A stretch of DNA of 64,000 nt from assembly GCF_000003815.2 (NCBI RefSeq), contig NC_049984.1, positions 11,344,718 to 11,408,717 of the forward strand. Reading direction: 5' to 3'. The notes below the pieces were generated by a model that saw only the letters and a program-made list of their open reading frames with translations, was not told where the DNA came from and did no database searches. Below are positions 13,570-50,773 of this stretch, piece after piece (the stretch's first letter is position 1; every line of letters begins with the position of its first letter). The position numbers were made by a program, and so were the translations under genes. This DNA is from Branchiostoma floridae (taxonomy: Eukaryota; Chordata; Leptocardii; Amphioxiformes; Branchiostomatidae).

Positions 13570-15489
13570 TCAGATAACGAGTTCACCTAACTTTTGTAAT
13601 TTCATCCAGGCCCCTTCCAAGGCCGATTGAATGGTAGGGGCATCTTTGCATTTTCCAACGACATGTCTGATGACTTTCTGATCGTCAAGTCGTTTGAACA
13701 GCTCATTCTCTTCGATGAGATCATGGCTCTCGCTGTGTGTGCGCTTGTCGTAGTAGTGGTAGGGGACGGGCTTGCCCCGGTAGGTAGACATGGGGTAGAA
13801 ACCGTACATGGAGATTTTATCACAGAAGGTGGAGGCCAGGGCGAAGGTGTTCAGGCCTGTTGAGGCGAAGTTCCCACGTGCCATTCTTCCGATAAGGTCT
13901 AAGTACAAACTGAGAATATCGAAAACAAGATCAATTTTACATTAAGATTAGGCAGCCAGGTCGGGAAGATACATAATAGTAACAAACATTTCAGGTAGCA
14001 TCCACTACGCCAGTGACTCAGACAGCTGTAGTTCAACACAAACAAAGACGAAGAAATATTGTAAATCTTCGTTATTAAAGAGACACGCTATGAGCCTTAG
14101 ACCTAATGTGTATCTTATTACATGTCTTATTTTCCATTCTGATATTCTCTGAACAACACTCACCCTTTGTTTTCCTTGAAAGAATTGGATGGAAAAGCCG
14201 TTATCGTCGACATCTTGTTCTCCTTGATCGCAGTGTCGATCACCTGTATCTCCCGGATGTTGTCAGGATCTTGGATGGAGTGACCTAAGATCATCCCGGG
14301 CGTCTCACCTAGCTCTGCCAGCGCGGATTTCTGACGTTTGAAGTCGCCGGACTGGAGAACATCACTTATCTGTTTCAACCGCTTTCCATTTACAATGGTC
14401 AGGTTGGTCCTGCTGCCTACATCCCTCCGGTACTTATGTACAGGCGGCAAGTTACAGCGGATGACGAACTCGTGAGCGTCTATCTCAGCACCACAGCCGC
14501 TATGGAGGAGTATACCGCCGTTACCCACCACTGCGCATGTCCGATAGTGCTTGATGGGAGTGCGCACAACATTACATGTCTTTTTAGACTTGCGAAGGGT
14601 GAATTTTAGATGGTCACATTTTTGCATGAAGATTTTGAAGTCAGAAAAATAGATAACGTCTTTCTTTGGATCAAAATATCTCTTCGTGATCTTTCTGTGG
14701 AGAAAATGAGGACAAATAAAATTCAATATATCGTTCAGTCATTCTAAAATGTTATCGATGTGATAACTCGAGAAGGGGGTCGCCCGTACTCTCCAAGCAG
14801 AGGTTAGGCTCCGGTTGTTTTTTAACGTTTTTTTTAGTCGTTTTTATCGGGCTTTCTATCTTTTTTTTATATCTTGCTGTGTCAAAACCTGTTTGACTGG
14901 CGTACTTCAAGAAAAATGACAAAATAGAAAGCCCGATAAAAACGTTAAAAAAACAGCCGGAACCTAACCTCTGCTTGGAGAGTAGGTCGCCCGAGGGGAT
15001 GGAGCAAGATTCTTTCTTCAGAGAAAAGTAATCGCAACCCAACTGAAGATGCATGGGAGTTCTCACACCTATTGGACTTAAGACATCTTTGGACATGCTA
15101 GAGGGGGGAAGACTTTGGTGGCTTTCAGAGTCACTCCTCTAACGTCAAGAGAAGAAGAAGGAGGAGATCTAATTACTTCTGCTCTACTACGTAAACAAAT
15201 GCACAAGCCTATTTCCTTATGTCTCAAAATAGGACAATAGGTTATTGTTTTTAACTTACTGAATGTTCCTGATATTTTGCTTGTCGAAGTAGACCTCCAG
15301 TTTTGCCATGACCCTCTTGTCTGGAACGGTTGTCTGTGACCGCTGGTGCTGTCTGTCTGGCATGATGAGCTTCAGACGGCGACCAATCTTCAATGGGTTC
15401 ATCGGTATCATGTCATAGACACAGAGCAAGACTATGGTAGCGAGACCAAGGCCACAGAACGCTGTTACATAGATAGATGGCTTGATCAT
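13570..15489 (-). CDS. ST8Sia-like alpha-2,8-sialyltransferase, array copy ST-1
   Basis: Three minus-strand exons: 15489-15260 (anchor and stem), 14694-14164 (motif L) and 13909-13570 (motifs S, III, VS; stop at 13572-13570). The total is 1101 bases, 366 residues, with both introns in phase 2 as in the other array copies. As a CMP-sialic acid-dependent Golgi enzyme it should add alpha-2,8-sialic acid to sialylated acceptors. Seen: hydrophobic anchor YVTAFCGLGLATIVLLCVYD near residues 7-26, motif [21 protein letters not shown], motif S around STGLNTFALASTFCD, motif III YHYYDK, and the VS His/Glu in HDLIEE. It differs from its sisters in two ways: the stem lacks the FNxTN sequon before the first intron, and motif S is preceded by MARGNF instead of xxWNF. 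Exon 3 has a longer tail after the conserved GKC. A MULE-type MITE sits in intron 1. Confidence 0.88.
14778..14993. mobile_element. MULE-type foldback MITE, copy 1 (with TSD)
   Basis: The element at 14787-14984 has ends TACTCTCCAAGCAGAGG and the exact inverse. The inverted repeats run most of the length (foldback). A perfect 9-bp target duplication, GGTCGCCCG, lies at 14778-14786 and 14985-14993. Nine-base duplications are typical of Mutator-like elements. It has no transposase and sits in intron 1 of ST-1. Confidence 0.8.
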
Positions 15490-18639: not shown

Positions 18640-20160
18640 TCATGTTGGAGCGTCAGGCTTGCATTTTCCAACGACATGCCTGACAACTCCGTCGGCATTC
18701 AGCTGTCGTATCATGGCGTACTCTCTGTCAAAGTCATGACTTTCGCTTGGCGTGTGCTTGTCGTAGTAGTGGTAGAAAACACGATTGCTTTGGTATAAAG
18801 GCATGGGGTAGAAGCCGTACATGGAGATCCTATCACAGAATGTGGAGGCCAGGGCGAACGCGTTTAGGCCCGTCGAGGGGTAGTCAAACTCTTGTCCGGC
18901 AATTTCTATGTACGCCCTAGAGGGGGTTAGATGATAAAAACCCGATTGAAACAAGGATATTGTAAAAATTACATGCATATACATGAAATGAAAACAGATA
19001 AGCAATATAGCAAAGACAACAATTCAATGCAATAGAAAATGGAAACAGGTATTTTTGCTGAATAAAATAATACATAAGTTTGTGTTATTGATGGAAATGT
19101 ATTATACCGTTTGCCGTCCACCAAAGACGTGGACGGAAAAGCAGTTATGGTCGTTTTGTTGTACATCTTGATTGCAGTGTTGATTACCCCCATGTCCTCC
19201 TGTCTTTTCTTCGAAAAGATAAGCGAATAGCTGAAGATCATCCCAGGCGAGTCAAACAACTGAACCCAAGGCATGGCTGTTTCCAGTGGCTTGCCAAACA
19301 CAGATTGAAGGCCTCGGCTGAGCTTTGTCAACCGCCTTCCATTTACAATCGTCAAGTTTGTCCTGCTGCCGACATCCCTGCGGTATTTAAGTACTGGCGG
19401 CAGGTTGGGACGGATGACGAACTCGTGAGCGTCTATCTCAGCACCACAGCCGCTTTCGAGAAGTATACCGCCGTTACCCACCACTGCGCATGTCCGATAG
19501 TGCTTGATTGGCGTGTGCACCACGTTGCATGGACTTTTTGATGAATTCCGAAGTGTGAACGTTTGGTAGTCACATTTTTCCACGAGGACATCAAGATCGG
19601 AGTAATAAATGATGTGTCTTTTCGAGTCAAAATATTTCTTAGTAATATTCCTGTGGAGACAAAAGATGGATAAAAAACATCGGTTCACATCGTCACTCTT
19701 CTACATCTGATACTGAAATAAAACACGGTGAAATCAATGTTACATATCGCCAATAAAAGAAACACACCCTCGACTTCGGGGCCTTTCAAAACACAGTATC
19801 ACCAACGTATGACTAGGGATATTGTGAAGGGGAATGAAATGTTGCGACTTACTGCACTTTCCGAATGTTTGTGACGTTGAAGTGGCCATAAAATTCTCTT
19901 TTTGCCCAGAGCCGATTCAGAAATGAATGATTCCCACTTGGATAACGATGATGATGTAGTCTCAGCAACTGAGCCCTCAGCGGTCGGCGGTTAGGCACGA
20001 TAGGTTGGATAACCTTGTGTCGGTGAATTTGTTCCCCCGGCGGTGGCAAATCTGGGACCTCTGGATCCTGTTGGTAAATGTAGAAACCGACTAGACCAAT
20101 ACCGAAGAGTATCATAGCATGGAAGAGTGGTACTGGTCTGACCATACGTGGCCTGAACAT
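18640..20160 (-). CDS. ST8Sia-like alpha-2,8-sialyltransferase, array copy ST-2
   Basis: Exons on the minus strand: 20160-19853, 19650-19108 and 18916-18640 (stop TGA). The total is 1128 bases, 375 residues, with the same phase-2 introns as its neighbours. The start is MFRPRMVRPVPLFH, directly before the anchor AMILFGIGLVGFYIY; in-frame ATGs also exist at 20178 and 20193. The stem is Pro- and His-rich and ends with the conserved sequon FNVTNIRKVQ. Exon 2 has motif L ([20 protein letters not shown]) and DVGSRTNLTIVNG. Exon 3 has PSTGLNAFALASTFCD, YHYYDK and the VS pair in HDFDREYAM, and ends GKCKPDAPT. All catalytic motifs are intact, so it is probably active. Its upstream flank was duplicated to give the relic unit at 16.8-18.5 kb, or both derive from one ancestor. 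Confidence 0.9.
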
Positions 20161-21483: not shown

Positions 21484-23234
21484 TCAGTCGATGTTACATT
21501 TTCCAATTACGTGTCTAATGATTCCCTGAGCGTGAAAATTCCTTAACAGCTTGAACTCGTTGTCGAATTCGTGTCTTGCGCTAGGAATACGACTGTCGTA
21601 GTAGTGGTAGGGAACGGCTTTGTTCTGGTAGGTAGACATGGGGTAGAAACCGTACATGGAGATCTTATCACAGAAGGTGGAGGCCAGGGCGAAGGTGTTC
21701 AGGCCTGTTGAGGCGAAGTTCCACTCTTCCCCCACAAGCTCCTGGTACACTCTGAGGAAAACAAAATATCAATTATGATTGATAAATCATATTTAGTTTA
21801 ATCTAGTTATTATACTATATATATTCATAGAAACTACAATAGGTTGTATAAAACCAACAAGTAACCCCATTCCGGCTATCCGCCGTCTGTGCGTATGTCC
21901 ATGCATATGTATCTGTGAAAAGCTTACTTGTGAAATGGAGTGTGGTCAGTTTAGTGTGGTTTTGATGCCAATCAGTGTACACGACTTATAGATGGAGGGA
22001 CATAGGCGGTTTGCACCTACCCTTTGCTCCGTAGGAATGACTTGTACGGGAAAGCAACCACTGCCGTTAATTTATTCTTTTGGATGACTTTGTCTATAGA
22101 CTTCATCTTCTTTGCCGCCTTAGACCGAATGAAGTACAGCGTGTAGCTCAAGACCATTCCAGGGGTCTCGCCAAGACGATCCAGCATGGCTTTCTTAAGT
22201 GTCGCGTTCTTAGACAGGAGGTCCCTGTAGACCTGTGAAAGGACTTTTTCATTCACGGTGGTCAGGTCAGTCCTGCTGCCGACGTCCGTTCTGTACGGTG
22301 AGACTGGCGGCAAGTTGGAACGGATGACGAACTCGTGAGCGTCTATCTCAGCACCACAGCCGCTATCGAGAAGTATACCGCCGTTACCCACCACTGCGCA
22401 TGTCCGATAGTGCTTGATGGGAGTGCGTACAATGTTGCAGGGCATTCGCCTGCTCCTGTCTTTGAGAAGTGTGAAGTACTGCGGTTGACATTTCCTCATG
22501 AGGACGTTATAGTCCGAGTAGTAGATAACGTGACGTTTTGGGTCAAAATATTTCTGAGTGATATTTCTGTGGACAAAGGACAATATTAATATTAATATTG
22601 TTAAAGATCGAGCAAATGCCATGTGACAATAATACCATAACAAGCTATAACACGTGACCCAATATGGAGACCGACATCACAACTGAGACTACAGATTCTT
22701 ATATTCATTTAATGATCAGAATGTGTTGTTTCCCAGCACACTGGATATGATTGAAATGTCTCTTGGAGTGAAAAGGGATGAGCAAAGAAATAAAGATCAG
22801 AATAATTCCAAAAATTAAAGCTTAAACTAAGCCATCATAAGGTTACAATATGTTTTGTCGGCGATGAAAAAGACAGCACGGAAATAACAAAAAGGAGTTT
22901 TATATTTGCCCTGTTGACAAACGAGCTTAGCCTTGTGGTTGAAGTAATAAACATCTCAAACTAACCGTATTCTCATGACATTCGTCATGTTGAAGTGCCA
23001 CTCCTTTGTCACAGTTTGGTTAATGTCATACGTCAGACTGAGTTCATGTCTGGTCAGGTTCAGGCCCTGCCTGCGCACCGTCACTACCCCGTGGTACTCA
23101 CGAAGTACCTGCAAAGAGTCGAGTCGCCATGTCCGGGTGTGGTTGTACGCGAACACCAAGCCGAGACCAATTAAGGATATGCCGAAAAGGAGAATGGCGT
23201 AGAAAAGCGACCGAAGTAATCTCCGGCCGAACAT
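21484..23234 (-). CDS. ST8Sia-like alpha-2,8-sialyltransferase, array copy ST-3
   Basis: Exons on the minus strand: 23234-22966, 22566-22021 and 21751-21484 (stop TGA). The total is 1083 bases, 360 residues, near the usual ST8Sia length. MFGRRLLRSLFYAILLFGIS begins the type II anchor, which continues LIGLGLVFAY. The stem carries NHTRTW, NLTRHE and NQTVTKE sequons and ends HFNMTNVMRIR. Exon 2 reads NITQKYFDPKRHVIYYSDY, then motif [21 protein letters not shown]. Exon 3 reads WNFASTGLNTFALASTFCDK, PYHYYD, and HEFDNE for motif VS, ending GKCNID. Motif L (about 99 bp) and motif S are nearly identical in nucleotides to other copies while the stem is unlike them. An in-frame ATG at 23303 lies before a possible AG/GT boundary, so the 23234 start is preferred. 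Confidence 0.9.
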
Positions 23235-26714: not shown

Positions 26715-28970
26715 TCATATTGACGCGTCGGCTGTAGGCTTGCATTTTCCAAGTACATGTCTGATAACTCCGTCGGCATTCAGCTGACGTATCATGGCGT
26801 ACTCTCCGTCAAAGTCATGACTTTCGCTCGGCATGTGCTTGTCGTAGTAGTGGTAGGGGATGCGCTTGTTTTGGTACAATGGCATTGGGTAGAAACCGTA
26901 CATGGAGATCTGGTCACAGAATGTAGAGGCCAGGACGAAGATGCTTAGACCACTCGAGGTGAAGTTCCACCGTTTCCCCACAAGTTTTTCATACACCCTA
27001 GGGGGTTGATAAATGAATGACCATACGTGAGTGAGAACAAATGCCACACTCAAGTACATGCACATAGAAATACGGTAATACAATGTGTCAAATGCAAACA
27101 AACCATATCCTACATAATTCACATTGGAGAAAGCAGAATTGATATTGTTTGCGCCACAACATATATACGTTATTGATGGAAATGTGTTCTACCGTTTGCT
27201 GTCTAGGAACGATACTGCCGGGAAAGCAGTAATGGTCGTTTTGTTGTACTTCTTGATTGCACTGTCGACTATCCGCATTTCTTCCTGTCTTTTTCTTGTG
27301 AAAATAAAGGGGTAACTGAAGATCATCCCAGGCGACTCGAACAGTTGAAGATCTCTGTGAGTAACGGTAGTCTTCAATGTCCTGCCATGGACAGACCGCA
27401 GGGTTCGGCTGATCTCTTTCAGTCGCTTTCCATTTACAATCGTGAAGTTAGTCCTGCTGCCTACATCTCTCTCATGGCCATGTACAGGCGGCTGGTTAAA
27501 CCTGATGACGAACTCGTGAGCGTCTATCTCAGCACCACAGCCGCTATGGAGGAGTATACCGCCGTTACCCACCACTGCGCATGTCCGGTAGTGCTTGATG
27601 GGCGTGTGCACCACGTTGCAGGGGCTTTGAGGTGAGTCTCGAAGAGTGAATTTTAATTCGTTGCATTCTTTCATGAAGATGTCGAAGTCCGAAAAATAGA
27701 TAATATGTTTCTTTGGATCAAAATATTTCCTGGCAAGTTCCCTGTGAAGAACAAGATCATAACAGTGAAGAAATAAAATTAATGTAATTACTTCAATCTA
27801 GTGGAGAGGTAAAACTACCCAAATGTACGGCATTCCCGTAAGCTTTAGTGTCCAGTCGATTCCCCGGCTTACAACACATATGCTTCTCACAAGTTCAAGC
27901 ACGCTGAGACAATTATCAATCGTACATCTTTAATATATATAACGTTATAGGCTTTTCATATGATGTCACCTGCGTTAGATTACATCTTACGTCTGTAAAG
28001 CCCACTTATCAAAATGAGAATTATTAATTGTCGATGAAAAGCCTGTATTGTCAATGCAAGTAAAAGTTACCTGTTGAAAAAGGTTATTCATATCATTACG
28101 CAAGTGTTGAGCTTACCGCACTTTCCATAAGTTTGTCATGTTGAAGTGGTCTGTCCTTCTTACTATGGGCTGGTGCGGAAAGGTCTTCAGTGGCCGGTGG
28201 TTGTACGCAGTGACTGGTCGGCCCATGTTCAGTGGATGCTCATTGGCTGGTTGGCCCATGTTCAAAGGATTTTCATTGGCTGGTCGGCCCATGTTCATAG
28301 GGTGTTCAGTGACTGGTCGACCCATGTTCAGTGGGTGTTCATTGGCTGGTTGGCCCATGTTCAAAGGATTTTCATCGGCTGGTCGGCCCATGTTCATAGG
28401 GTGTTCAGTGACTGGTCGACCCATGTTCAGTGGGTGTTCATTGGCTGGTTGGCCCATCTTCATAGGATTTTCATCGGCTGGTCGGCCCATGTTCATAGGG
28501 TGTTCAGTGACTGGTCGACCCATGTTCAGTGGGTGTTCATTGGCTGGTTGGCCCATCTTCATAGGATTTTCATCGGCTGGTCGGCCCATGTTCATAGGGT
28601 GTTCAGTGACTGGTCGACCCATGTTCAGTGGGTGTTCATTGGCTGGTTGGCCCATCTTCATAGGATTTTCATCGGCTGGTCGGCCCATGTTCATAGGATG
28701 TTCAGTGACTGGTCGACCCATGTTCAGTGGGTGTTCATTGGCTGGTTGGCCCATGTTCAAAGGATTTTCATCGGCTGGTCGGCCCATGTTCATAGGGTGT
28801 TCAGTGACTCGTCGACCCATGTTCAGTGGACGGGCGAAGGCTATCGTCAGGTGCAGGTCGACAGCTTGTTCGTACACGCAAAACATCGCCGCGATGGTAC
28901 TCAGGCCAATAGCGAAGAATACTTTTGCATAGAAAAAGGGTATGATCACGGCGCCCCTCCCGGCCTTCAT
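26715..28970 (-). CDS. ST8Sia-like sialyltransferase with repeat-expanded stem, array copy ST-4
   Basis: Exons on the minus strand: 28970-28117, 27741-27193 and 26997-26715 (stop TGA). The total is 1686 bases, 561 residues, about 200 more than its sisters. The start is MKAGRGAVIIPFFYAKVFFA, which leads into the membrane anchor; an in-frame ATG at 29003 would add 11 residues. After the anchor the stem is an 11-residue repeat (NMGRPVTEHPM-type), about 18.7 units, then HFNMTNLWKVR. Exon 2 has motif [21 protein letters not shown] but then FNQPPVHGHERDVG instead of xNLPPVxxYRxDVG. Exon 3 has SSGLSIFVLASTFCD where sisters have STGLN, then PYHYYDK and the VS pair HDFDGE. All key motif residues remain. 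The changes at SSGLS and FNQPP hint at altered donor or acceptor handling, which is inference. Confidence 0.88.
28206..28823 (-). repeat. Coding minisatellite, 33-bp unit in a 99-bp higher-order repeat
   Basis: Eighteen full and one partial 11-codon units lie in ST-4 exon 1. They are arranged as six 99-bp triplets of NMGRPVTEHPM / NMGRPADENPM / KMGQPANEHPL type. Triplets 2 to 4 are identical in protein; the outer triplets carry R for P, L for M, N for K or N for D changes. The regular pattern shows amplification of the three-unit block rather than of single units. The antisense frames stay open because the unit is a multiple of three. Confidence 0.97.
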
Positions 28971-29347
28971 TGGTGTCAATCGATCTGTAAGTGAACGTGT
29001 CACGATACAATTTCTGTACTAGAACTCCTCTAGAGCTTCGTACGTTCGTCACATAATTTCGTCTTATTGCAATGCAAACGGACAAAGAGAAAGGCTGGGT
29101 TTACACAAGCGTTTTCCTTGTCAACTCCGACGAAATCGAGTCAACCCCCCGGTGAGTTATACAATGCTCATGCCAGGTATTATTTGAAAATCAGGGAAGG
29201 CACTTGGCGCACATTTAAAAATTTGTTTCCTTCTCTTTATATTACAAGGTTTTGGTATCTGTTGAAAATTTTGAGCACCTTGTTGTGCAAGTTGGTCAAG
29301 ATTCTATGCGAGGCAATACTGCAGTCGCCACACCTCTGGCACAGTCA

Positions 29348-29570
29348 CTTCAAGGCTACTCTCCAAGCAGAGGTTAGGCTCCGGTTGTTTTTATTACGTA
29401 ATTTAGTCGTTTTTATCGGGCTTTCTATTTTGTCATTTTTCTTGAAGTACGCCAGCCAGGTTTTGACACAGCAAGATAAAATACAAAATAGAAAGCCCAA
29501 TAAAAACGACTAAAAACGTTTTAAAAAAAACAGCCGGAGCCCAACCTCTGCTTGGAGAGAACTTCAAGGC
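29348..29570. mobile_element. MULE-type foldback MITE, copy 2 (with TSD)
   Basis: The element at 29357-29561 has the same ends as the one in ST-1 intron 1 (TACTCTCCAAGCAGAGG, one terminal mismatch on the right). It is flanked by a perfect 9-bp duplication, CTTCAAGGC, at 29348-29356 and 29562-29570. Confidence 0.8.
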
Positions 29571-30090
29571 CTCGTGTGTAGACAGAACTCTACTCACAAA
29601 GGTGGTATCTCACTGCACTTGGGGCACCAGGGCGGCACTGCGGGGTTCGTTCACTGCGGCACTGTTGTGTTATTTTTGTTCTCCGAGCCGAACCGGAAAC
29701 GCTCGTGTAAGCCCAGCCTAAGTTACGTAACGTTACGTAATTCATGGTTTGCGAAACATTACTGTGACAGATACCAATTAAGCAAATAAAACATGGTTTT
29801 CATAATCAACGCGAAAGCGTCATAACTCGTCGTATGTGAGGAGAATATCAACAAGGTGACATGTATAAACTAGCATTTTTAAACTATGCAGAGATAATGT
29901 GAATCTGGACGTCCTTTGTATAATCATATACGAAGATAGATTTTTAGTACTTTAATATTTCATGAAGGTATATGGTCTACAAACTCTTGTTGGACATAGT
30001 TTCGCACTGTAAATCATGTTTTAGATATACAGATTTATAAGCGCGACCCACCCAGTGACCTGGGGCACAATTCCGTGTGTTTTATAATAC

Positions 30091-30259
30091 TAGCCTCTAC
30101 CAGACTCCGTGGATCGGTAGAATCATTATCCTCACCACGAGTTTCGACGTGGTGAGGAAACGTACTCTTCTGGCCGGCTAACTCCCCTAGCGTACTATAG
30201 ACTCTATTTGTCCAATTTCTACAATTAGACCACCGATCCACGAAGCCTGGTAGAGGCTA
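30091..30259. mobile_element. TIR MITE, TAGCCTCTACCAG ends
   Basis: The left end TAGCCTCTACCAGACTCCG and the inverse of the right end TAGCCTCTACCAGGCTTCG match over about 27 bp, through GTGGATCGG. Termini TA...TA suggest a TA target site. An inner inverted pair (CCTCACCACG / CGTGGTGAGG) lies near 30133-30160. Confidence 0.7.
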
Positions 30260-31196: not shown

Positions 31197-31568
31197 AGTC
31201 TCTACCAGACTCCCGCCTGGCCGAATAGGGGAATTTGGCCAAGTTATCAATAAAACTCCAGTACTGGAGGAATAAATTAGCCTTTTAGGAGTTAATGAGG
31301 AGTCTAGGCCTAGGAGTGCATTGACCTTTGCACCCATCAGCTGACAGTCGTGAGATTGCGCTTGGATGCGCTCGACTACGTGCTAAGTGATTTATGGCTC
31401 TAATGATCTCAACTCCAGAACTACTGCCTTTATACAGAAAATGAGCGGATTAGTTTTATGATCTCTGAACAGACTCCCGCGGCCGATCAGTTCACTCCTA
31501 GGCTTTTATTCCTAACTTGGCCAGATTCCCCTATTACTATTCGGCCAGGCGGGAGTCTGGTAGAGACT
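31197..31568. mobile_element. TIR element, AGTCTCTACCAGACTCCC ends
   Basis: The inverted ends of about 50 bp share AGTCTCTACCAGACTCCCGC, then CTGGCCGAATAG and TGGCCAAGTTA. The right arm carries a 6-bp insertion (TAATAG type). It shares the core CTACCAGACTCC with the element at 30091. No transposase. Confidence 0.75.
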
Positions 31569-32608: not shown

Positions 32609-34650
32609 TTATAAAAGCCTTCGTGTTAACGCATTCATATTGTCAACAGCCTGAAAAGGAGTCAGTACAGATACATTTTCAGAATGTATAGCACATTTTC
32701 CGACTACGTGTTTTATGATTCCATCTTCGTCCATTTGCCGTAACATGGCATACTCTTCGTCAAAGTCATGCCGGCTACTGGGCGGAAGTTTGTCGTAGTA
32801 GTGATAAGAGACACTCTTGTTCTGGTATCTAGACATGGGGTAGAAACCGTACATGGAGATCTGGTCACAGAAGGTGGAGGCCAGGGCGAAGGTGTTCAGG
32901 CCGGTCGAGGCGAACTTCCATTGTTTTCCCACGAGCTCTCTGTATAAACTAATAATAGGATTGACCAAGATTAGCTGGAATGAAGCCTTAGGTTTGGTAC
33001 AGGAGAAGTAACATTGTGGTAAACGAAGAGAATCACATGGTCAAGGCACACATATGTTAACAACCTAACAAATGAGATGAAAAGGAAACTAGCAACCAAA
33101 CTTGCCAACGAACTCATGATTATAGAGAAATATTTTCAGTGTAATATAATGTAGTCTTACAGATGCTCTACGCGATGGATGGGTATGTTTTGACATCACT
33201 TTCTTTTAGTCAGCTTATCATTTCTGATTTCGTTGACGTTGTCCATCTCTGCACAAGTTTCTGATACTTTCTTTGCTAGAAAATACATAGAAATTCATCT
33301 ATATTTACCGTCTGCTTTCCAAGAACGACCTGGATGGAAAGGCTGTTACCGTTGACAGGTTGTTCTTCTTGATGGCAGTGTCGACTATCTGCATCCTATA
33401 TCTCGCCTTCGACCCGATGAAAGCGAATGAATAACTGAAGATCATCCTCGATGATTGGCCGAGACGAGCTAGCATGGCTTTCCGAAGTGTCGCGTTGAAG
33501 GACTGAAGGTCGTCCGCGATCTGCACTAGTCTCTTAACATTTACAATGGTTAAGTCTGTCCTACTGCCTACATCATTCCGGTACTTATGTACAGGCGGCA
33601 GGTTGGAACGGATGACGAACTCGTGAGCGTCTATCTCAGCACCACAGCCGCTATGGAGGAGTATACCGCCGTTACCCACCACTGCGCATGTCCGATAGTG
33701 CTTGATGGGTGTGTACACCACGTTGCAGGGTCTGGGGCGGCGCGGGTGCGAGTTGCGCAGTCTGAACGTCTCAGGGTCGCACTGTTGCATGAAGACGTGG
33801 AAGTCCGAGAAATAGATAATGTGTAACCTCGGATTGAAATACTTCCTGGTGATGTTCCTGCAGACACAAACACAAAGACAAGTAAGTCTAATTGTTTATT
33901 TCTTGATTCCATAGCCCCAGACTGATGATATGCTATAATAGTTGCTCAACAAGTCCCAAGCCAACCGGGTGTCCCAAATCTAAGGTCATTGACCTACCTT
34001 TGTAGGGCAGACCAGCTGTCTATGGACTATACCACCCTACATTCAAGAAAGGGGCGTCCACTGTATAATGCTGCAGTACCTGAAAGTACTGCTAGGAGGC
34101 CCAACATTATCAGGTTTCTTCGTGATCTCAACAACTACCAAATACATTGTACAAAGATTCATACAAATCCATGTGAAGAATCTTGGGTTAGAGAGCGAAC
34201 ACACATTCACATCCCAATGATTAAAAAACAAAACCCCATCGTAGGTTAACTAATATTTAGATGTAGGCAGGCGCTAGATGGCGTCACGTAATGGTTAACA
34301 TCCTTTACTACATGTTGGAGAGACCATTTAGTAAAACTGATGTAAGTGTTCCTTTTAATTTTAGAAATATCACAAATAGGTAGTTAACGTTACATCTTTA
34401 TCAGAAGTACATGCTTAACCTACCGCGTTTTCCAAATGTTTGTCATGTTGAAATGTGCATTTCTTTCCGCCATCAGACGGTCTATGAAATTCGGCGGTGG
34501 TCGGAGATTCTCGGGTATGGTCGTGTTCGGACGGCGGACGAATATCCGCGCCAGGTGCAGGGTGGCTGTCTGCTTGTACACGTACAGCAAGCCGATGGTA
34601 ATCAGGCCGATACCGAAAAATACTGTGGCATGGAATAATGGTCTGATCAT
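32609..34650 (-). CDS. ST8Sia-like alpha-2,8-sialyltransferase, array copy ST-5
   Basis: Exons on the minus strand: 34650-34424, 33857-33309 and 32948-32609 (stop TAA). The total is 1116 bases, 371 residues. The anchor FHATVFFGIGLITIGLLYVY follows the start MIRPL. The stem is short and Pro/Arg-rich, ending HFNMTNIWKTR. Exon 2 reads NITRKYFNPRLHIIYFSDF, then motif [21 protein letters not shown] and DVGSRTDLTIVN. Exon 3 reads LVGKQWKFASTGLN, FALASTFCDQ, YHYYDK and RHDFDEEYAM for motif VS, with a 25-residue tail after GKC that differs from every sister. Its 99-bp motif-L block is identical in nucleotides to that of ST-1, about 19 kb away. This is the most upstream (5'-most) gene of the array. 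Confidence 0.9.
34268..34284 (+). promoter_or_regulatory. CTCF-like motif in intron 1 of ST-5 (about 140 bp below exon 1)
   Basis: The bases GCAGGCGCTAGATGGCGTC resemble a CTCF core of the CTAGATGGCG type. It is a single match and weak evidence. Confidence 0.25.
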
Positions 34651-39625: not shown

Positions 39626-42600
39626 CTAACTGCAGGGCACCGCCTGAAGTTTTAGTACTCCCCTGTCATGAAGACGGTTTAGGAATAAAAACTCCTCTGT
39701 GAAATTGTGGTATGGTCCGTGCTCAATCAGCTCTCGCTCCAGGAATTTGTCCTTGAATTCCCTCATTCCCAAGGTCGGTCGGTCGAAGTAGTGGTAGTTG
39801 ACCGGCTGACCGTTGTACTTGGAGAAAGGCCAGAAGCCGTACAGAGTGACCTCTTCACACAGAGACAGGGACACCGCCAACAGCAGCAGACCTGAACAGG
39901 TGTACAACAGTCACATGATGAGAGATATCGATGTAAAGTTATGAGAATTTTCACATTGCTGAGGTTAAGCATTGTTCTAAGAATTGACGATCACACATTC
40001 AAGGTCCTTAAAAAAACGTTGATGTCGTTTAGAATGAGTGTCATGTTTGACCCTCAAATATGTGACTGTACAAATGCGGCATTTCTACATCAAAACCCTG
40101 CCTGACAATTGCTCATGCGCAACTTTGTCCAAAATTCTTATCACTATCATTTTAAACAATTATTTGATGAGAGTTTTTGCACCTGATTCTAGTTTATGCC
40201 TAGGTTACACATAGCCGACTTTGGCTCCCGAACACTAGCCGACTCTTAGCCGACCCAAGTCGGCAGTAGTTCGGGAGTAGTCTGACCAGTTTAGGCCACG
40301 CCTATTTTTTAGCGCCGAACATGTCCCGAACACCTCCCGACCAGTAAATGACTTACTCCCGACTGTGTCCCAAATGCTAACTAACCTATCACCAACCATC
40401 CCGACCTCTAGCCGCAGACTGCCGAATCACTCCTGACTGATCCCCAACCGATTGCCGACCCTTTTTCGACTTGAAATAGACAAAATCAGCGATTTTCAAA
40501 AGAGTGCTCATTTTCGTTTTTAATCAAGAATGTCCTTTGTTCTATTTGTAAACATCACCAAGAGATAAAATTTAGATCACATATAGCACCAGTGCGGTAT
40601 TTATGGGTCTTTTTGTTTTTGGCTGGATGTCGGTCGTGTGAAGTTCGGGAGTGATTCGTCTACGTTCTGGCAATAGTCTTTTTGCTTGGGAATGAGCTAG
40701 CAGAGATTTGTCTAAGGTCTTGGGGTGAATCATTGGTAAGTTGGAAACAAGCTGGGAGTAAATCAGCAATGTTTATGGCGTGGTTAAGATTTAATTTGAC
40801 TGCTGACTTACTCCCGAACACCAACCGAACACTAGCCGACCGTGCCGAACACCAGCCGACCACCAACCGACCCATTCCAGAGTTGCCGTTCAGAGCCGAA
40901 TGTTTTGAACATTTCAAAACATTCGGATGGAGCAGACGAACACCAGCCGACTCAGCTGAACGCCAGCCGAACGCCAGCCGACTCAGCCGAACGCCAGCCG
41001 ACTACAGCCGACTAGCTCCCGAATCACTCCTAAACCATAGTCGGGAGAGAGTCGGGAGCCAAATTCGGCTATGTGTAACCTAGGCATTAAATTGCCTAAT
41101 TGAAATGATAAGTTCGTTTTAAAGTGGCAGAATTGACCGTCCATTGTGTTACTGTCAATCGTTCGTCTCGTTTCACACGTGAAAACGCTCGATACGGTAC
41201 TTAGCTTAGAATTATCTATTAAATTCTGACGTTTTATGTGCTCGTCCAGCCTGTGCTCATTTGCATATTTGTGACAGGGCAAATGCTGCGACGACCGTGT
41301 GATTGGCCTACCTGTGGTTGGTCTTAGCTCCTGTAAGCCCCGGCCCTTCCAGAAGGAAGCCACGGACAGGAGGAAGTCTGGATGGGACGCCCGGACCTGG
41401 CGGATACGGCCAGCGTTCTTCAGTGCATAGATGGCGAGCATGGAGACCTGAATAACGGCAAATCATGGGAACACGATGGAATAACTTCATCACATTTTTT
41501 CCCTTACACCTCGAGCTCTGTCAGATATCCTTACACGCTTTACTTTTCCCTCCCCCAATATTGTTTCCTTAACTAGCCCTAACACTGACATGGGAAGTCA
41601 TGTGAACAATGATACAACTTATGGAAAAAATAGACAAATCGACGGCAAATGGTTCGAAACTTGACGAAAATCACATTCCAATCCACTACCACATGCTCAT
41701 ACACAAAGCTTTACATGACCGACATGACGCAATACAATACTGTACTGATAACTAACAGTAAGGTGGCAAGTAATCATATCTCTCTTACTTACTTTATTCT
41801 AAAATATTTATGTGCACTAAGATTGAAACCAACCTTTGCGTGCCCGTACAGCCGGAATGGATGTGTGTACAGGAGAGGTTTGCCATACACTGCCAGGTCG
41901 TTTAAAAACCTCTTCTGGTCGTCTTCATTTATCAGTTTGTTATAGCTGTAAAGGAAAAAAAGTATTATGATATTTCGATGAAACTAAAGCTATCTACCAA
42001 CGACACGTTTCCATATGGCCGGGGCCAAAACAATCGTGGACGCTGCCAGTAATATACTACATCGGTGAAACCGAACAATCTCAGAGCAGGCTCTCACAGC
42101 ATAGACGGCCAAGCTCATCAAACTCAGAAGTCTCTGAGCACATTCACATCCAATCCCCAGGACATTCAGTGGCTTTGGACAAGTTAGCATTTTGGACTCT
42201 AGTTGGGCATGCCTACTTCCTAAGAGGAGAGAAGTGAAATAAACCATATACACTAGTGCCCATCGACCATCCCTCGCCCCAGACGGGGGCCGATATCAAC
42301 TGCAGGGCACCTTTGACCCGTTGTTGACGTCACACCTCTCAAGTCACGTGACATACGTTTCGGGTCATTTTGGCATGAGACGGATCAGAAGACTAATCGA
42401 ATGATTGTTGGTGACTGCTTTACTTTGGGTCCGGAAATAGCAGATAAAATCTTTACAAAAGGATTGAAAGTTGATAATGATATGAAGATACCCTCTGTTA
42501 ATCTCTGTTAGCAGACTTACGTGTCAAAAACTGATGGGTTGATCGTGATGAAGTCAGTCTTGCTCCCGACATCCCCTGCGAACTCGCCCCCAACTGGAGA

Positions 42601-45600: not shown

Positions 45601-45829
45601 ACTACCAGTGGACTAGCCCCCTGCTGTAGTAATTGCGTTGTGTGGCCCAAGGGCTACTGAAACGGAGATCAGGCGCGGGTGTGGCCCAAGGGCTACTGAA
45701 ACGGAGATCAGGCGCGGGAAGGACTTTAACTTAACTTAACTAACTAAAGAAGGTTACTTACATGGTTCCAACCACGGCAGCAAGGGTGTAACTCGTCAGT
45801 GTAGCGTTACTCCACATGGTGCTCCTCAT
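39626..45829 (-). CDS. ST8Sia-like sialyltransferase, second lineage (ST-6)
   Basis: Nine minus-strand exons: 45829-45762, 44650-44582, 44165-44013, 43472-43313, 43035-42923, 42610-42521, 41945-41834, 41447-41312 and 39891-39626 (stop TAG). They sum to 1167 bases, 388 residues, with all phases consistent. The anchor [20 protein letters not shown] spans exons 1-2 and is followed by QCIRQCRHA. Motif L is split across two exons, [20 protein letters not shown] then [15 protein letters not shown]. Motif S follows the segment [17 protein letters not shown] as [20 protein letters not shown], then GFWPF, YHYFD and the VS pair HNFTEE. GFWPF and the F-W region before motif S resemble vertebrate ST8SIA1/5/6 more than the tandem array does. 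Motif L has Arg (DSRCG) where most have Ser or Glu. A SINE lies in intron 1 and a large TIR element in intron 8. An in-frame ATG at 45940 would lengthen the cytosolic tail. Confidence 0.9.
40194..41089. mobile_element. TIR element with TTA target duplication and CCGAACACCAGCC-rich core
   Basis: The element at 40197-41086 has ends TGCCTAGGTTACACATAGCC and its inverse. The inverted repeats run about 38 bp with one mismatch. TTA flanks it at 40194-40196 and 41087-41089, a PIF/Harbinger-style duplication. The interior is made of degenerate GCCGAACACCAGCCGAC units in both orientations. No transposase. It sits in intron 8 of ST-6. Confidence 0.8.
45425..45755 (+). mobile_element. tRNA-derived SINE, copy 1, in ST-6 intron 1
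   Basis: SINE body 45438-45742. Near its start it has a Pol III A box (TGGCCTAGTGGGTAGAGTG) and B box (GTGAGTTCGATCCCC), and its tail is TTAAC repeats. The 13-bp target duplication ACTAAAGAAGGTT lies at 45425-45437 and 45743-45755. The right duplication ends directly beside the exon-1 donor of ST-6 (45761-45756 on the minus strand). An internal 39-bp direct duplication lies at 45641-45718. Confidence 0.88.
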
Positions 45830-46953: not shown

Positions 46954-49900
46954 ATGAAGATAGGGTCCTTCAGACGGTTTACATGCATCATCTTCCTCTT
47001 GTGCAGTCACAGCATTCTGCTGTTGTTTATACACAGGTTGGTGTACACTATCATAATGCTCTACCGACTATAGTTTGACAATGCGAAATTGTGGTTTTTT
47101 TACCATTATTTATTGTCTCGATCCAAACAATTTAACATTATAGACAATCTTTATTGACACGACAAAAGTACAGCGACTTTCGTAAGGTCTTACATTATAT
47201 GTAAGCGTAGGCAATTCCGTGGCTTTGTCTTTATTTATGCAGTATAGTCATGACGCATTACATTGTATTTATTTCAGGCATCAATTTAACCATAGTAATA
47301 ACATCACAACAAAGAGAATGTATATGTACAACATACTATAGGAAGGCGTTATTAACATATAGCAATCTACATACACAGTCGCTTCCTTGGGGTTTTGAAG
47401 TAGGTTATGCGGTAGATCGTATAATTGCCGTGTTTAGATTAATGGAAAAGGTGATTTGAAAAGAATGGCACTGTTTACACCATATCTGATCATATCTGGC
47501 ATCAAAAGTATCTGTCAAGTGGAATACAAACCAAATACAATCACGGAATAAATGGCTAGTTTTCTCTTGCTGTAGGAATGTGACGAGTGACAAATGTATC
47601 AGACAATGTAAGAGAAGAGTCGCATTCCGTAACCTCATGCAACACAACGGACAAACATCACCTGTTATGCAACATGGCCAACCAACGGAAACTGACAGGG
47701 GTCAAGGTGATGACTACCACACCACGCCCTTTCTTGGCTTCAACCTGACGGAAATCAAGAAGTTCAGGTGAATCAGCATTTTTAAATGCCATCATCATCT
47801 TACTAATATTAATGTTTTTAGCGTGTTCTCCAAGGAATTCTTTGGGGGCACTGAATCGTAGCGGTTTTGACTGGACCCAATGTCCTAGATCGAATTGACG
47901 ACATGAGACCGTGTTAGAAACCGCTCCCAAAGGTCTGGTCAGAGATTAATCATGCTCATAATCAATAGTACCTAGGCCTGTATCTAAACAAAACAACACT
48001 ATCAATGTGAAACTGTTTGCTATGTTTGTGTGTCTGAATGTTTAGGCCATCTACTGGCCCTGTTATTCCCTGGCTAGTCTAGTCTAGTCACTATTTCTGT
48101 GTTCTTTTTGATAAGAATTCCATGATATTTTCTTCTTTTTATGCACTGTAACGTAAGTGGTACCACCTATTGTCAGATTCATTCAAGACGTCATTTATTG
48201 CAAAATCGCGCGAACAGTGGACGATAATAGGTACCACACGACCATAGGTACCGCTACGTTAGTCTGCTGTGGGATCTGACAAATCGCTGTCTCATTTTGC
48301 AGAGAGGCAGTTGAAAAGAGAACGAAGCTGCGGCAATACCTGTTCGTCACCAAGAACAATACTAAGCTCGGGGAGAAGTTCCGATGTCTAGAGACGGACG
48401 AGTGGGTTCTGGACCCTGGCTACATCAGGATCACCGAGAAGAACTTCTACAACAAACTACCACAGGTACAACCGCTCCAAAACGTGAATGGGGGTGGGGG
48501 TGGTGTGGTAGTGTCCTAAGAATAAACGAAAAAAGAAATTCGATTAAAGTTTGAAAGCAGTTGGTACTCTTCAGATGGGACTTCAAAATCTTATCTTTGC
48601 AAGACACCCTTTAAAACCCCACATAACTGATTAAATCATGAACTGATGAACTTTGTTTATACCAGGAATCCCCTGTGAGAGCCAATATGTCCTTCAGATC
48701 ATGCAGTGTTGTCGGTAACGCCGGCCTGCTACAGAACTCCTCCTGTGGGAGGGAGATAGACTCGTCCACTTTTGTTTTCAGGTTAGTCAGAGCTTCAAAG
48801 TCGTTCCCCCGTTTCTACAGTTTCCATTACCATTACCGTCCATGAAGTGACGGTACGTTATAGACGTACCTGAATGGTGCCCAATGATTTTCGTTCTGTT
48901 TGCCATAGATCACAAGTTCCTTCTTGTTTTATAGATTGAACGCACAGTATACCTGCTTCACTCTTTATTTCAGGAGTAACTTTCCACCAATCGGTGGTCC
49001 TTATAACGATGACGTGGGGAAAAAGACCAATTTTCTTACTGCCAACCCTTCCATCTTTGCTAAGTTGTGAGTACACATTTTTAGTACATTTACAACATTT
49101 TGTCTCGAGGTGAATAGCTATATTTTTGTGTTAAATTAACGATTTCTTAACGTAAATTGGATTGAATTTGACCGTACACAGTATCCTTTTTTTAGCCTAG
49201 AAAATAGCAATGTTTTCTGGGTAAATGCCTGTTAATTATAAATTCTTACCTCTCAAAGCTATAAAAACCTGAAGAAGAACGCCGACAAGAAGTCTCTGGC
49301 CGAAGATCTCAAGCGATACGTTCGGTCGTTGGTTTGGACGCATCCATTCCATTTGAAAAGATATTCAGAGGTGAGTGCGTATCGTCTGTATCTCTGTGGT
49401 GTTTGTGCGTGCGAGCGTCTCCCATTTGTCTGTCTGTGTGTGTGTTAGTGTCTATGTGTAGTTGTGAAATGATTTTAGGCAAAACTATTCATCGTCATTC
49501 ATTTTCTTCACAATTTTAGGTAACCCTGCGGGCATATGACGCGACGAAAAGGTACAAGTCCTTGAATCCGGTCCTTTTCTCCCATCCCAAGTTCCTGCGG
49601 AATCTTACTGCGTTCTGGAATGAGCACGGTCTGAAGGCACTGAGGGCCAGCACAGGTAGGGGAGAAGAATTCTTAGCCGTAGGATCTATTTTCAACACCG
49701 GGAAGGAAGTCAGTGACCTCCGACAGGGGTGCTGTTTTTGTCTGTGCTGGTGTTTATGTGTGTTCGCAACTTTAATACAATGTCCTTTTGATGGATTTCT
49801 TTGAATTTTGGTATGTTGGTAGTCATTGAGGGTCCGAGACAACATGTAGCAGTAGTTTAAGATTTTGGAGAATCAAAGGTAGAAACCCTCATCTTGAAGG

Positions 49901-50773
49901 TAGTGTCGTTTGGCGAACGTTTCCTTTTCGCTGGAAGGGCCCAATCACTTACTCTGAAAGCAGAGGTTTGGCTCTGGGCTGCTTTAGATCAGCTGTTGCG
50001 GAGGTCTTATGCACTCTTCATGTTTCTCCTGTTGTTTGGGGGATGGTAACATCAATAACCGGTGCAATGGCCTAGTGGGCAGAGTGTTCACCTTGCATAC
50101 CGGTAGGTCGTGAGTTCGATCCCCGGCCGAGTCATACCAAAGACTTAAAAAATGGTACATGCTGCTTTCTCTGCTTAGCACCCAGCATTCGGGAAAGAGT
50201 ATGGAAGTTGAACACACACCACTACCAGTGGACTAGCCCCCTGCTGTAGTAATTGCGTTGTGTGGCCCAAGGGCTACTGGAACGGAGATGGGCGCCGCCC
50301 TATGCGCCATCAGGCGCGGGAAGGAACTTTGACTTTGACTTTGAACATCAATAAAGTACATTGACACAACATACCCACATGTAGAGCCCATGTGCGCAGA
50401 GCCAATGACGCTGTATATGTAATTGGGGAAAATGATAAGTGAATAAAAGAAAGAGGTATACACAAACCACTACTTTATCTTTTCAGGTCTGGCTCTCGCG
50501 ACCATTGCAGCTTCTCTGTGCGATCAGGTGACCCTGTACGGTTTCTGGCCTTTCCCTTTGTACCGCGGGAGGGCGCTGTCCTACCACTACTACGAAAGAG
50601 CTGTGATCGGAGACGTGGAGTTCCGGAATAAAACGCTAGAGTACCACCTGTTAACGAACTTTCACCCCTACCACAACTTCACGGAGGAGTTTTTGATATT
50701 ACAGAAAATGCAGGGTAAGGGTATACTCAAGGTGCAGGTCGGGGAGTGCCAGAACACACGGACAGGAAAGTAA
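46954..50773 (+). CDS. ST8Sia-like sialyltransferase, second lineage (ST-7)
   Basis: Eight exons: 46954-47036, 47576-47767, 48303-48465, 48666-48781, 48974-49066, 49259-49370, 49520-49655 and 50487-50773. They sum to 1182 bases, 393 residues, with all splice phases consistent. The type II anchor is CIIFLLCSHSILLLFI after MKIGSFRRFT. The stem has DKCIRQCKRR, matching QCIRQCRHA of ST-6. Motif L is CSVVGNAGLLQNSSCGREID, then FVFR across an intron and SNFPPIGGPYNDDVGKKTN. Before motif S is HPKFLRNLTAFWNEHGL; motif S is STGLALATIAASLCDQVTLY, then GFWPF, YHYYE and VS HNFTEE. Exons 3-8 match ST-6 exons 4-9 in phase and place, while its exon 2 covers what is two exons in ST-6. Ala replaces Gly/Ser in VVGNAG, and Glu replaces Asp in motif III. 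It is probably a working Golgi enzyme. Confidence 0.92.
49951..49982 (+). mobile_element. End fragment related to the MULE-type MITE
   Basis: TACTCTGAAAGCAGAGGTTT resembles the 5' end TACTCTCCAAGCAGAGGTTA of the MITEs at 14787 and 29357. No matching right end was found nearby. It lies in ST-7 intron 7. Confidence 0.4.
50048..50354 (+). mobile_element. tRNA-derived SINE, copy 2, in ST-7 intron 7
   Basis: SINE body 50059-50343, the same family and orientation as the copy at 45438, with A and B boxes and the middle part nearly identical. The tail is GACTTT repeats. The 11-bp target duplication AACATCAATAA is at 50048-50058 and 50344-50354. It keeps a segment (GGGCGCCGCCCTATGCGCC) where copy 1 has the 39-bp duplication. 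Confidence 0.88.

Follow-up and report, generated by a model that had tools for sequence, protein, structure and literature searches.

A probable in-frame minisatellite expansion in the predicted stem of an ST8Sia-like sialyltransferase of Branchiostoma floridae

According to the available part of PMC2564942, Branchiostoma floridae possesses the ST8Sia EX group, divergent ST8Sia-like genes arranged in tandem on scaffold 66 with others nearby, while the part of PMC3087553 at hand describes unstable amphioxus minisatellites, so-called mirages, in the Adh3 and globin genes, located at exon borders. The B. floridae stretch analysed here, 64,000 nucleotides (nt) of contig NC_049984.1 (positions 11,344,718 to 11,408,717; hereafter the window, in whose own numbering all coordinates are given), likewise contains a tandem ST8Sia-like cluster with further ST8Sia-like genes nearby, as in the accessible portion of the EX group report (PMC2564942), and in the alignment of the window paralogues, blocks resembling sialylmotifs and a conserved GKC at the C terminus are visible. 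The cluster comprises five tandem minus-strand genes, designated ST1 to ST5, one of which (ST4) carries a tandem array between its predicted membrane anchor and its catalytic part. We think it likely that this array reflects in-frame growth of a minisatellite in a tolerant linker, resulting in a longer tether on an otherwise ordinary GT29 enzyme. The ST4 features on which this reading is based are as follows.

28970-26715, minus strand: ST4 gene, GT29 (ST8Sia-like), three coding exons, 561 amino acids (aa) (paralogue alignment, gene model)
28117..28970, minus strand: ST4 coding exon 1 with anchor, repeat stem and stem end, donor GTAAGC, phase 2 (paralogue alignment)
28869..28970, minus strand: residues 1-34, forming the cytosolic tail and a predicted transmembrane anchor (hydropathy, predicted helix 9-46, homology to ST5 exon 1)
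28208..28829, minus strand: coding array of tandem 33-bp units that form higher-order triplets of 99 bp (Tandem Repeats Finder, unit translation, unit identity)
28797..28829, minus strand: unit 0, PLNMGRRVTEH, the sole GRR unit and candidate founder (unit translation, comparison with ST1 stem)
28117..28208, minus strand: unique stem end 3' of the array (AYNHRPLKTFPHQPIVRRTDHFNMTNLWKV), related to paralogue stem ends (tblastn, alignment)
27193..27741, minus strand: ST4 exon 2, sialylmotif L region (Pfam, alignment)
26715..26997, minus strand: ST4 exon 3 with sialylmotifs S, III and VS, C-terminal end and stop (Pfam, alignment)

Tandem Repeats Finder detected the array at two periods, 33 (28214-28825, 18.5 copies, 80% matches, 0% indels, score 783) and 99 (28208-28829, 6.3 copies, 97% matches, 0% indels, score 1160), the latter being the top score in the window, with 158 for the runner-up array and a maximum of 46 in 100 dinucleotide shuffles of 27001-30000. 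Its 622 bp correspond to 207 codons, made up of 18 complete units of 11 residues and one incomplete unit of nine, which on the minus strand follow the fixed order PLNMGRPVTEH / PMNMGRPADEN / P[ML][KN]MGQPANEH; 18 of the 19 units carry the motif MG[R/Q]P, unit 0 having MGRR instead. Across the 18 full units, mean identity is 0.80 at lag 1 and at lag 2 but 0.98 at lag 3, and the three-unit order is therefore real. Numbering the triplets from 0 to 5 on the single haplotype on which the array analysis rests, triplets 2 and 3 are identical and triplet 1 differs from both by one base, triplet 0 is one base off triplet 4 and three to four bases off triplets 1-3, and triplet 5 forms a clearly divergent edge, three to six bases off all others. 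Alike inner triplets next to one divergent edge fit the pattern expected from repeated unequal exchange. A preliminary description of this locus had claimed about 206 residues of Met-Gly-x-Pro repeats in a three-unit higher-order structure, shaped by repeated unequal exchange and placed between anchor and sialyltransferase catalytic domain; the two repeat periods far above the shuffles bear out the array itself, the residue number agrees with the codon count, motif and triplet order are confirmed by the unit comparison, exchange is compatible with the triplet differences, and the gene model places the array in frame in exon 1, behind a predicted anchor. The same near-identity (triplets 1 to 3, and 0 with 4) would also permit collapse or expansion during assembly, so that the true array might be shorter, longer or absent; however, the differences carried by triplet 5 and by triplet 0 against triplets 1-3 speak against such an error, as does a length that would fit a single Sanger or long read, and we regard it as highly improbable.

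The strongest evidence that the array is coding comes from the comparison with the four paralogues.

13570..15489, minus strand: ST1, 366 aa, stem of 40 residues containing PLKIGRRL (gene model)
18640..20160, minus strand: ST2, 375 aa, stem of 62 residues, nearest to ST4 in the catalytic part (gene model, dN/dS and tree)
21484..23234, minus strand: ST3, 360 aa, stem of 48 residues (gene model)
32609..34650, minus strand: ST5, 371 aa, exons 34650-34424, 33857-33309 and 32948-32609, stem of 39 residues; 368 aa with the other exon 3 acceptor taken in the paralogue alignment (gene model)

All five genes share three coding exons joined phase 2 / phase 2 with no internal stop, and in each of them exon 1 encodes a hydrophobic anchor followed by a related block before intron 1, which reads HFNMTNLWKVR in ST4, HFNMTNIWKTR in ST5, HFNVTNIRKVQ in ST2 and HFNMTNVMRIR in ST3 and is more divergent in ST1 (YFDKQNIRNIQ). 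The ST4 anchor (tblastn, E 2.6e-9) and stem end (E 3e-5) both match ST5 and share one frame that runs through the array, and because these homologous flanks lie in the same frame the coding frame of the array is settled. Considering that the paralogue stems span 39-62 residues and that the flanks match ST5 in frame, the array inserts about 200 residues in frame, giving ST4 a stem of 240 residues compared to 62 in ST2, 48 in ST3, 40 in ST1 and 39 in ST5. In the gene model the array thus has the features of a coding minisatellite: it lies wholly within exon 1 in an open minus-strand frame, its unit is a multiple of three and the frame is kept.

Besides the coding frame, two plus-strand frames are open across the array. 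Simulation of 5000 arrays with a comparable composition left a given frame open in 52% of them, with three open frames out of six as the commonest outcome (28%); openness by itself is therefore not evidence for coding. Pooled over the three unit classes, the proportion of synonymous differences (pS) is 0.286 and that of nonsynonymous differences (pN) 0.179 in the coding frame, a pN/pS of about 0.63 that is based on few substitutions, while the two open plus-strand frames give 1.40 and 1.15. Constraint on the array looks weaker than on the catalytic part, on few changes. We set aside a plus-strand gene, as pN exceeds pS in both open plus-strand frames and three open frames are commonplace in the simulation; no protein library search was made with these frames.

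The catalytic part of ST4 belongs to a recognisable enzyme class. Pfam PF00777 (GT29) matched exon 2 with 95.6 bits and exon 3 with 54.7 bits (cut-off 23), whereas no Pfam family matched exon 1 at E up to 1, and the sialylmotifs L, S, III and VS, including HYYD and HxxxxE, were found by eye in the five-paralogue and 5bo6 alignments. Among eight solved structures matched, the best two were the alpha2,8-sialyltransferase chains 5bo6 (99.7 bits, E 1.2e-27) and 5bo8 (96.8 bits), which we take to be human ST8SIA3, the other six (ST6GalNAc2, ST3Gal1, ST6Gal1) reaching at most 56 bits. The 5bo6 alignment starts at ST4 residue 228, inside the array, and its array portion is not credible homology. By sequence, the closest solved relative of the predicted ST4 enzyme is an alpha2,8-sialyltransferase, in line with an ST8Sia-like assignment. 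Pairwise ratios of nonsynonymous to synonymous substitution rates (dN/dS) in the catalytic part are 0.21-0.38 in all ten paralogue pairs, and a tree of the five window paralogues groups ST2 and ST4 as sisters (support 99/95); in both comparisons the ST5 exon 3 start was three bases off, adding one codon. Since its catalytic exons look intact and dN/dS is 0.21-0.38, ST4 does not look like a pseudogene.

Around sialylmotif L, at 27590-27516 in ST4 and its counterpart in the other four paralogues, mean DNA identity reaches 95-100% over about 75 bases, with 90-100% at third positions compared to 53-63% just downstream, which suggests gene conversion between the tandem copies or constraint at the DNA or RNA level. 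The cluster furthermore contains three minus-strand fragments of sialyltransferase exon 2 / exon 3, at 16937-16777 (E 2e-9), 18508-18305 (E 1e-19) and 26561-26520 (E 0.12), apparently relics of lost copies. On its high-coordinate side, at 43014-39650 (minus strand) and 48654-50758 (plus strand), lie fragments resembling two more distant ST8Sia-like genes.

Prediction agrees with the type II layout of a Golgi membrane enzyme, consisting of a short tail, one N-terminal transmembrane segment and a luminal stem. The highest 19-residue hydropathy (1.91) falls on residues 8-26 and, from residue 48 onwards, exon 1 shows no value above -0.51, and a single-sequence structure model of exon 1 contains one helix (residues 9-46) and no other structure, with a predicted local distance difference test score (pLDDT) of about 43-48 starting at residue 51. 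The 207 array residues include 37 Pro, 29 Asn, 28 Met, 19 Gly, 7 Thr and no Ser, and no N-glycosylation sequon occurs in the array. We rejected a mucin-like stalk on this composition, and a folded repeat domain on the structure model, which has none and is weak evidence. In residues, the ST4 stem is 4-6 times as long as the paralogue stems, with a contour about five times longer; if the chain is disordered and scales with N^0.59, we estimate that it reaches on average about 2.6 times as far as a 47-residue stem. The earlier suggestion that the array doubles the reach is thus roughly right for a random coil and too low for contour length.

A local founder of the array within the ST4 stem itself is likely on sequence grounds. 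Unit 0 is membrane-proximal and the only unit with GRR in place of GRP or GQP, and its PLNMGRRV resembles PLKIGRRL in the ST1 stem (16 of 20 bases alike), a segment that is also close to the anchor. In 1000 shuffles of the ST1 stem, the DNA score of this match was reached four times and its protein score never. Eight comparisons at the DNA level and twelve at the protein level made up the founder test; shuffle fractions were at least 0.35 for the remaining seven at the DNA level, and among the other eleven at the protein level one (AYNH in ST3) stood at 20 of 1000 shuffles. According to the proposed mechanism, an ancestral ST4 stem segment (PLNMGRR...) would have been duplicated in frame and would have grown by slippage and later by unequal exchange of 99-bp triplets into the 622-bp coding minisatellite, and the product would be an ordinary GT29 enzyme whose tether exceeds those of the paralogues by about 200 residues. 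Such an expansion would be tolerated, since the unit length is divisible by three and type II glycosyltransferases of the Golgi have a stem that serves as a loose linker. We infer that the founder was local, that unequal exchange took place, that the array is transcribed and translated, that the product resides in the Golgi and that stem length is nearly neutral.

Several observations weigh against this reading. The founder match was found in only one of the four paralogues (ST1), stem disorder is taken from a single-sequence model with a mean pLDDT of 50, which is poor evidence, and within the array the coding-frame pN/pS contrast comes from few substitutions, with both changes between the two C-type units altering the amino acid. 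In addition, the first AUG, at 28970, is in a weak context, while 19 in-frame AUGs in strong context lie within the array (28226-28820, minus strand), so that translation might possibly start there, and 56 donor-acceptor pairs, all weak, could remove the whole array. The best of these, donor 28875 (-2.2) with acceptor 28170 (0.4), comes near the weakest modelled junctions, and a donor-like site at 28163 (1.5), 3' of the array, is a possible alternative exon end.

These last points would fit an array left outside the main mature transcript, through another promoter or first exon or through splicing, and hence effectively non-coding, or an internal start yielding a cytosolic, inactive enzyme. 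ST4 moreover has GTG at the position where ST1 and ST5 start with ATG; leaky scanning could produce a protein that lacks the anchor and is presumably useless, or translation could in fact begin further upstream, and ST4 may have an upstream non-coding exon or a start 5' of 28970. However, exon 1 is homologous to the first exons of the paralogues, its donor and phase being conserved, and dropping it would cost the anchor. Splice scores were obtained with a textbook animal consensus matrix, which may not fit this species; on this scale the ten modelled junctions have donors of -2.1 to 6.1 and acceptors of 0.0 to 8.0, and inside the array the best donor-like and acceptor-like sites score -5.0 and -6.7. 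Removal of the array by the pair 28875/28170 would delete 706 nt and shift the frame. In frame, acceptor 28170 combined with donor 28922 (-3.4) or 28949 (-4.7) comes next by score and would cut or remove the anchor, and the remaining in-frame pairs have donors of at most -7.7 or acceptors of at most -6.7. Splicing around the array appears unlikely on these scores, and a non-coding array or an internal start is, in our view, improbable.

Another question is whether the long stem is an adaptation, providing reach to distant acceptors or setting partners, Golgi position or cleavage release, with length as the tuned property. Such a role is suggested by the restriction of the long stem to ST4 among the five paralogues, by a frame kept over 19 units with MG[R/Q]P in all but one, by pN below pS between unit classes, and by other glycosyltransferases whose stems reportedly influence specificity or the formation of complexes (available parts of PMC10460411 and PMC10715278). 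Nevertheless, recent homogenisation alone would keep frame and motif, and the constraint signal in the array is weak and comes from few changes; we consider adaptation rather unlikely. Together, the array is real and unusual among the five genes, and in-frame growth in a tolerant linker probably represents a tolerated expansion. A further proposal is that ST4 is naturally length-polymorphic, with alleles of different triplet number conferring different reach, so that individuals would sialylate different glycoconjugates and the minisatellite would act as a tuning device, which we consider quite improbable.

To our knowledge, the role of stem length in Golgi glycosyltransferases is poorly understood. 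With a stem about fivefold longer in ST4 and close paralogues without the insertion, this cluster would offer a natural test of stem length, which alleles of graded length would extend if the locus were polymorphic; if length is neutral, the array illustrates how permissive the stem is.

The window holds further repeats. Two inverted-repeat elements resembling miniature inverted-repeat transposable elements, at 29359-29559 (upstream of ST4) and 14787-14984 (ST1 intron 1), are alike by eye, and two others, at 31197-31568 and 30091-30259, both carry CTCTACCAGACTCC near their end, the former with perfect arms of 32 nt. Tandem repeats at 40814-41017 and 45640-45718 comprise 11/31-bp arrays and a perfect 39-bp duplication.

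Among GT29 enzymes, ST6GalNAc I has a long stem rich in Ser and Thr, and its chicken form is reported to carry short repeats there. As in ST4, anchor and catalytic domain are separated by a long, repeat-bearing stem, whereas the ST4 array, with 7 Thr and no Ser, is built from 33-bp units in 99-bp triplets. With the coding variable number tandem repeats of mucins, ST4 shares in-frame tandem repeats in a non-cytosolic linker, but its array is not rich in Ser or Thr and is joined to an enzyme. The claim in the preliminary description that such a stem is not known from any Golgi sialyltransferase is too strong in view of ST6GalNAc I; that of ST4 is probably not the first repeat-bearing GT29 stem, but its array is a distinct variant. 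In the literature on repeat-bearing sialyltransferase and glycosyltransferase stems, no repeat-stem sialyltransferase was recognised among the matches listed, and the available parts of PMC8433944 and PMC10225777 contained no repeat stem. As far as the accessible part of PMC3087553 describes them, the mirages resemble the ST4 array in being tandem repeats within amphioxus genes, and they are length-unstable; we did not classify the ST4 array as a mirage, as 28208-28829 lies inside exon 1 (28970-28117). Unlike the mirages, which span exon-intron borders in the available account (PMC3087553), the ST4 array is contained within a coding exon and has a unit that is a multiple of three.
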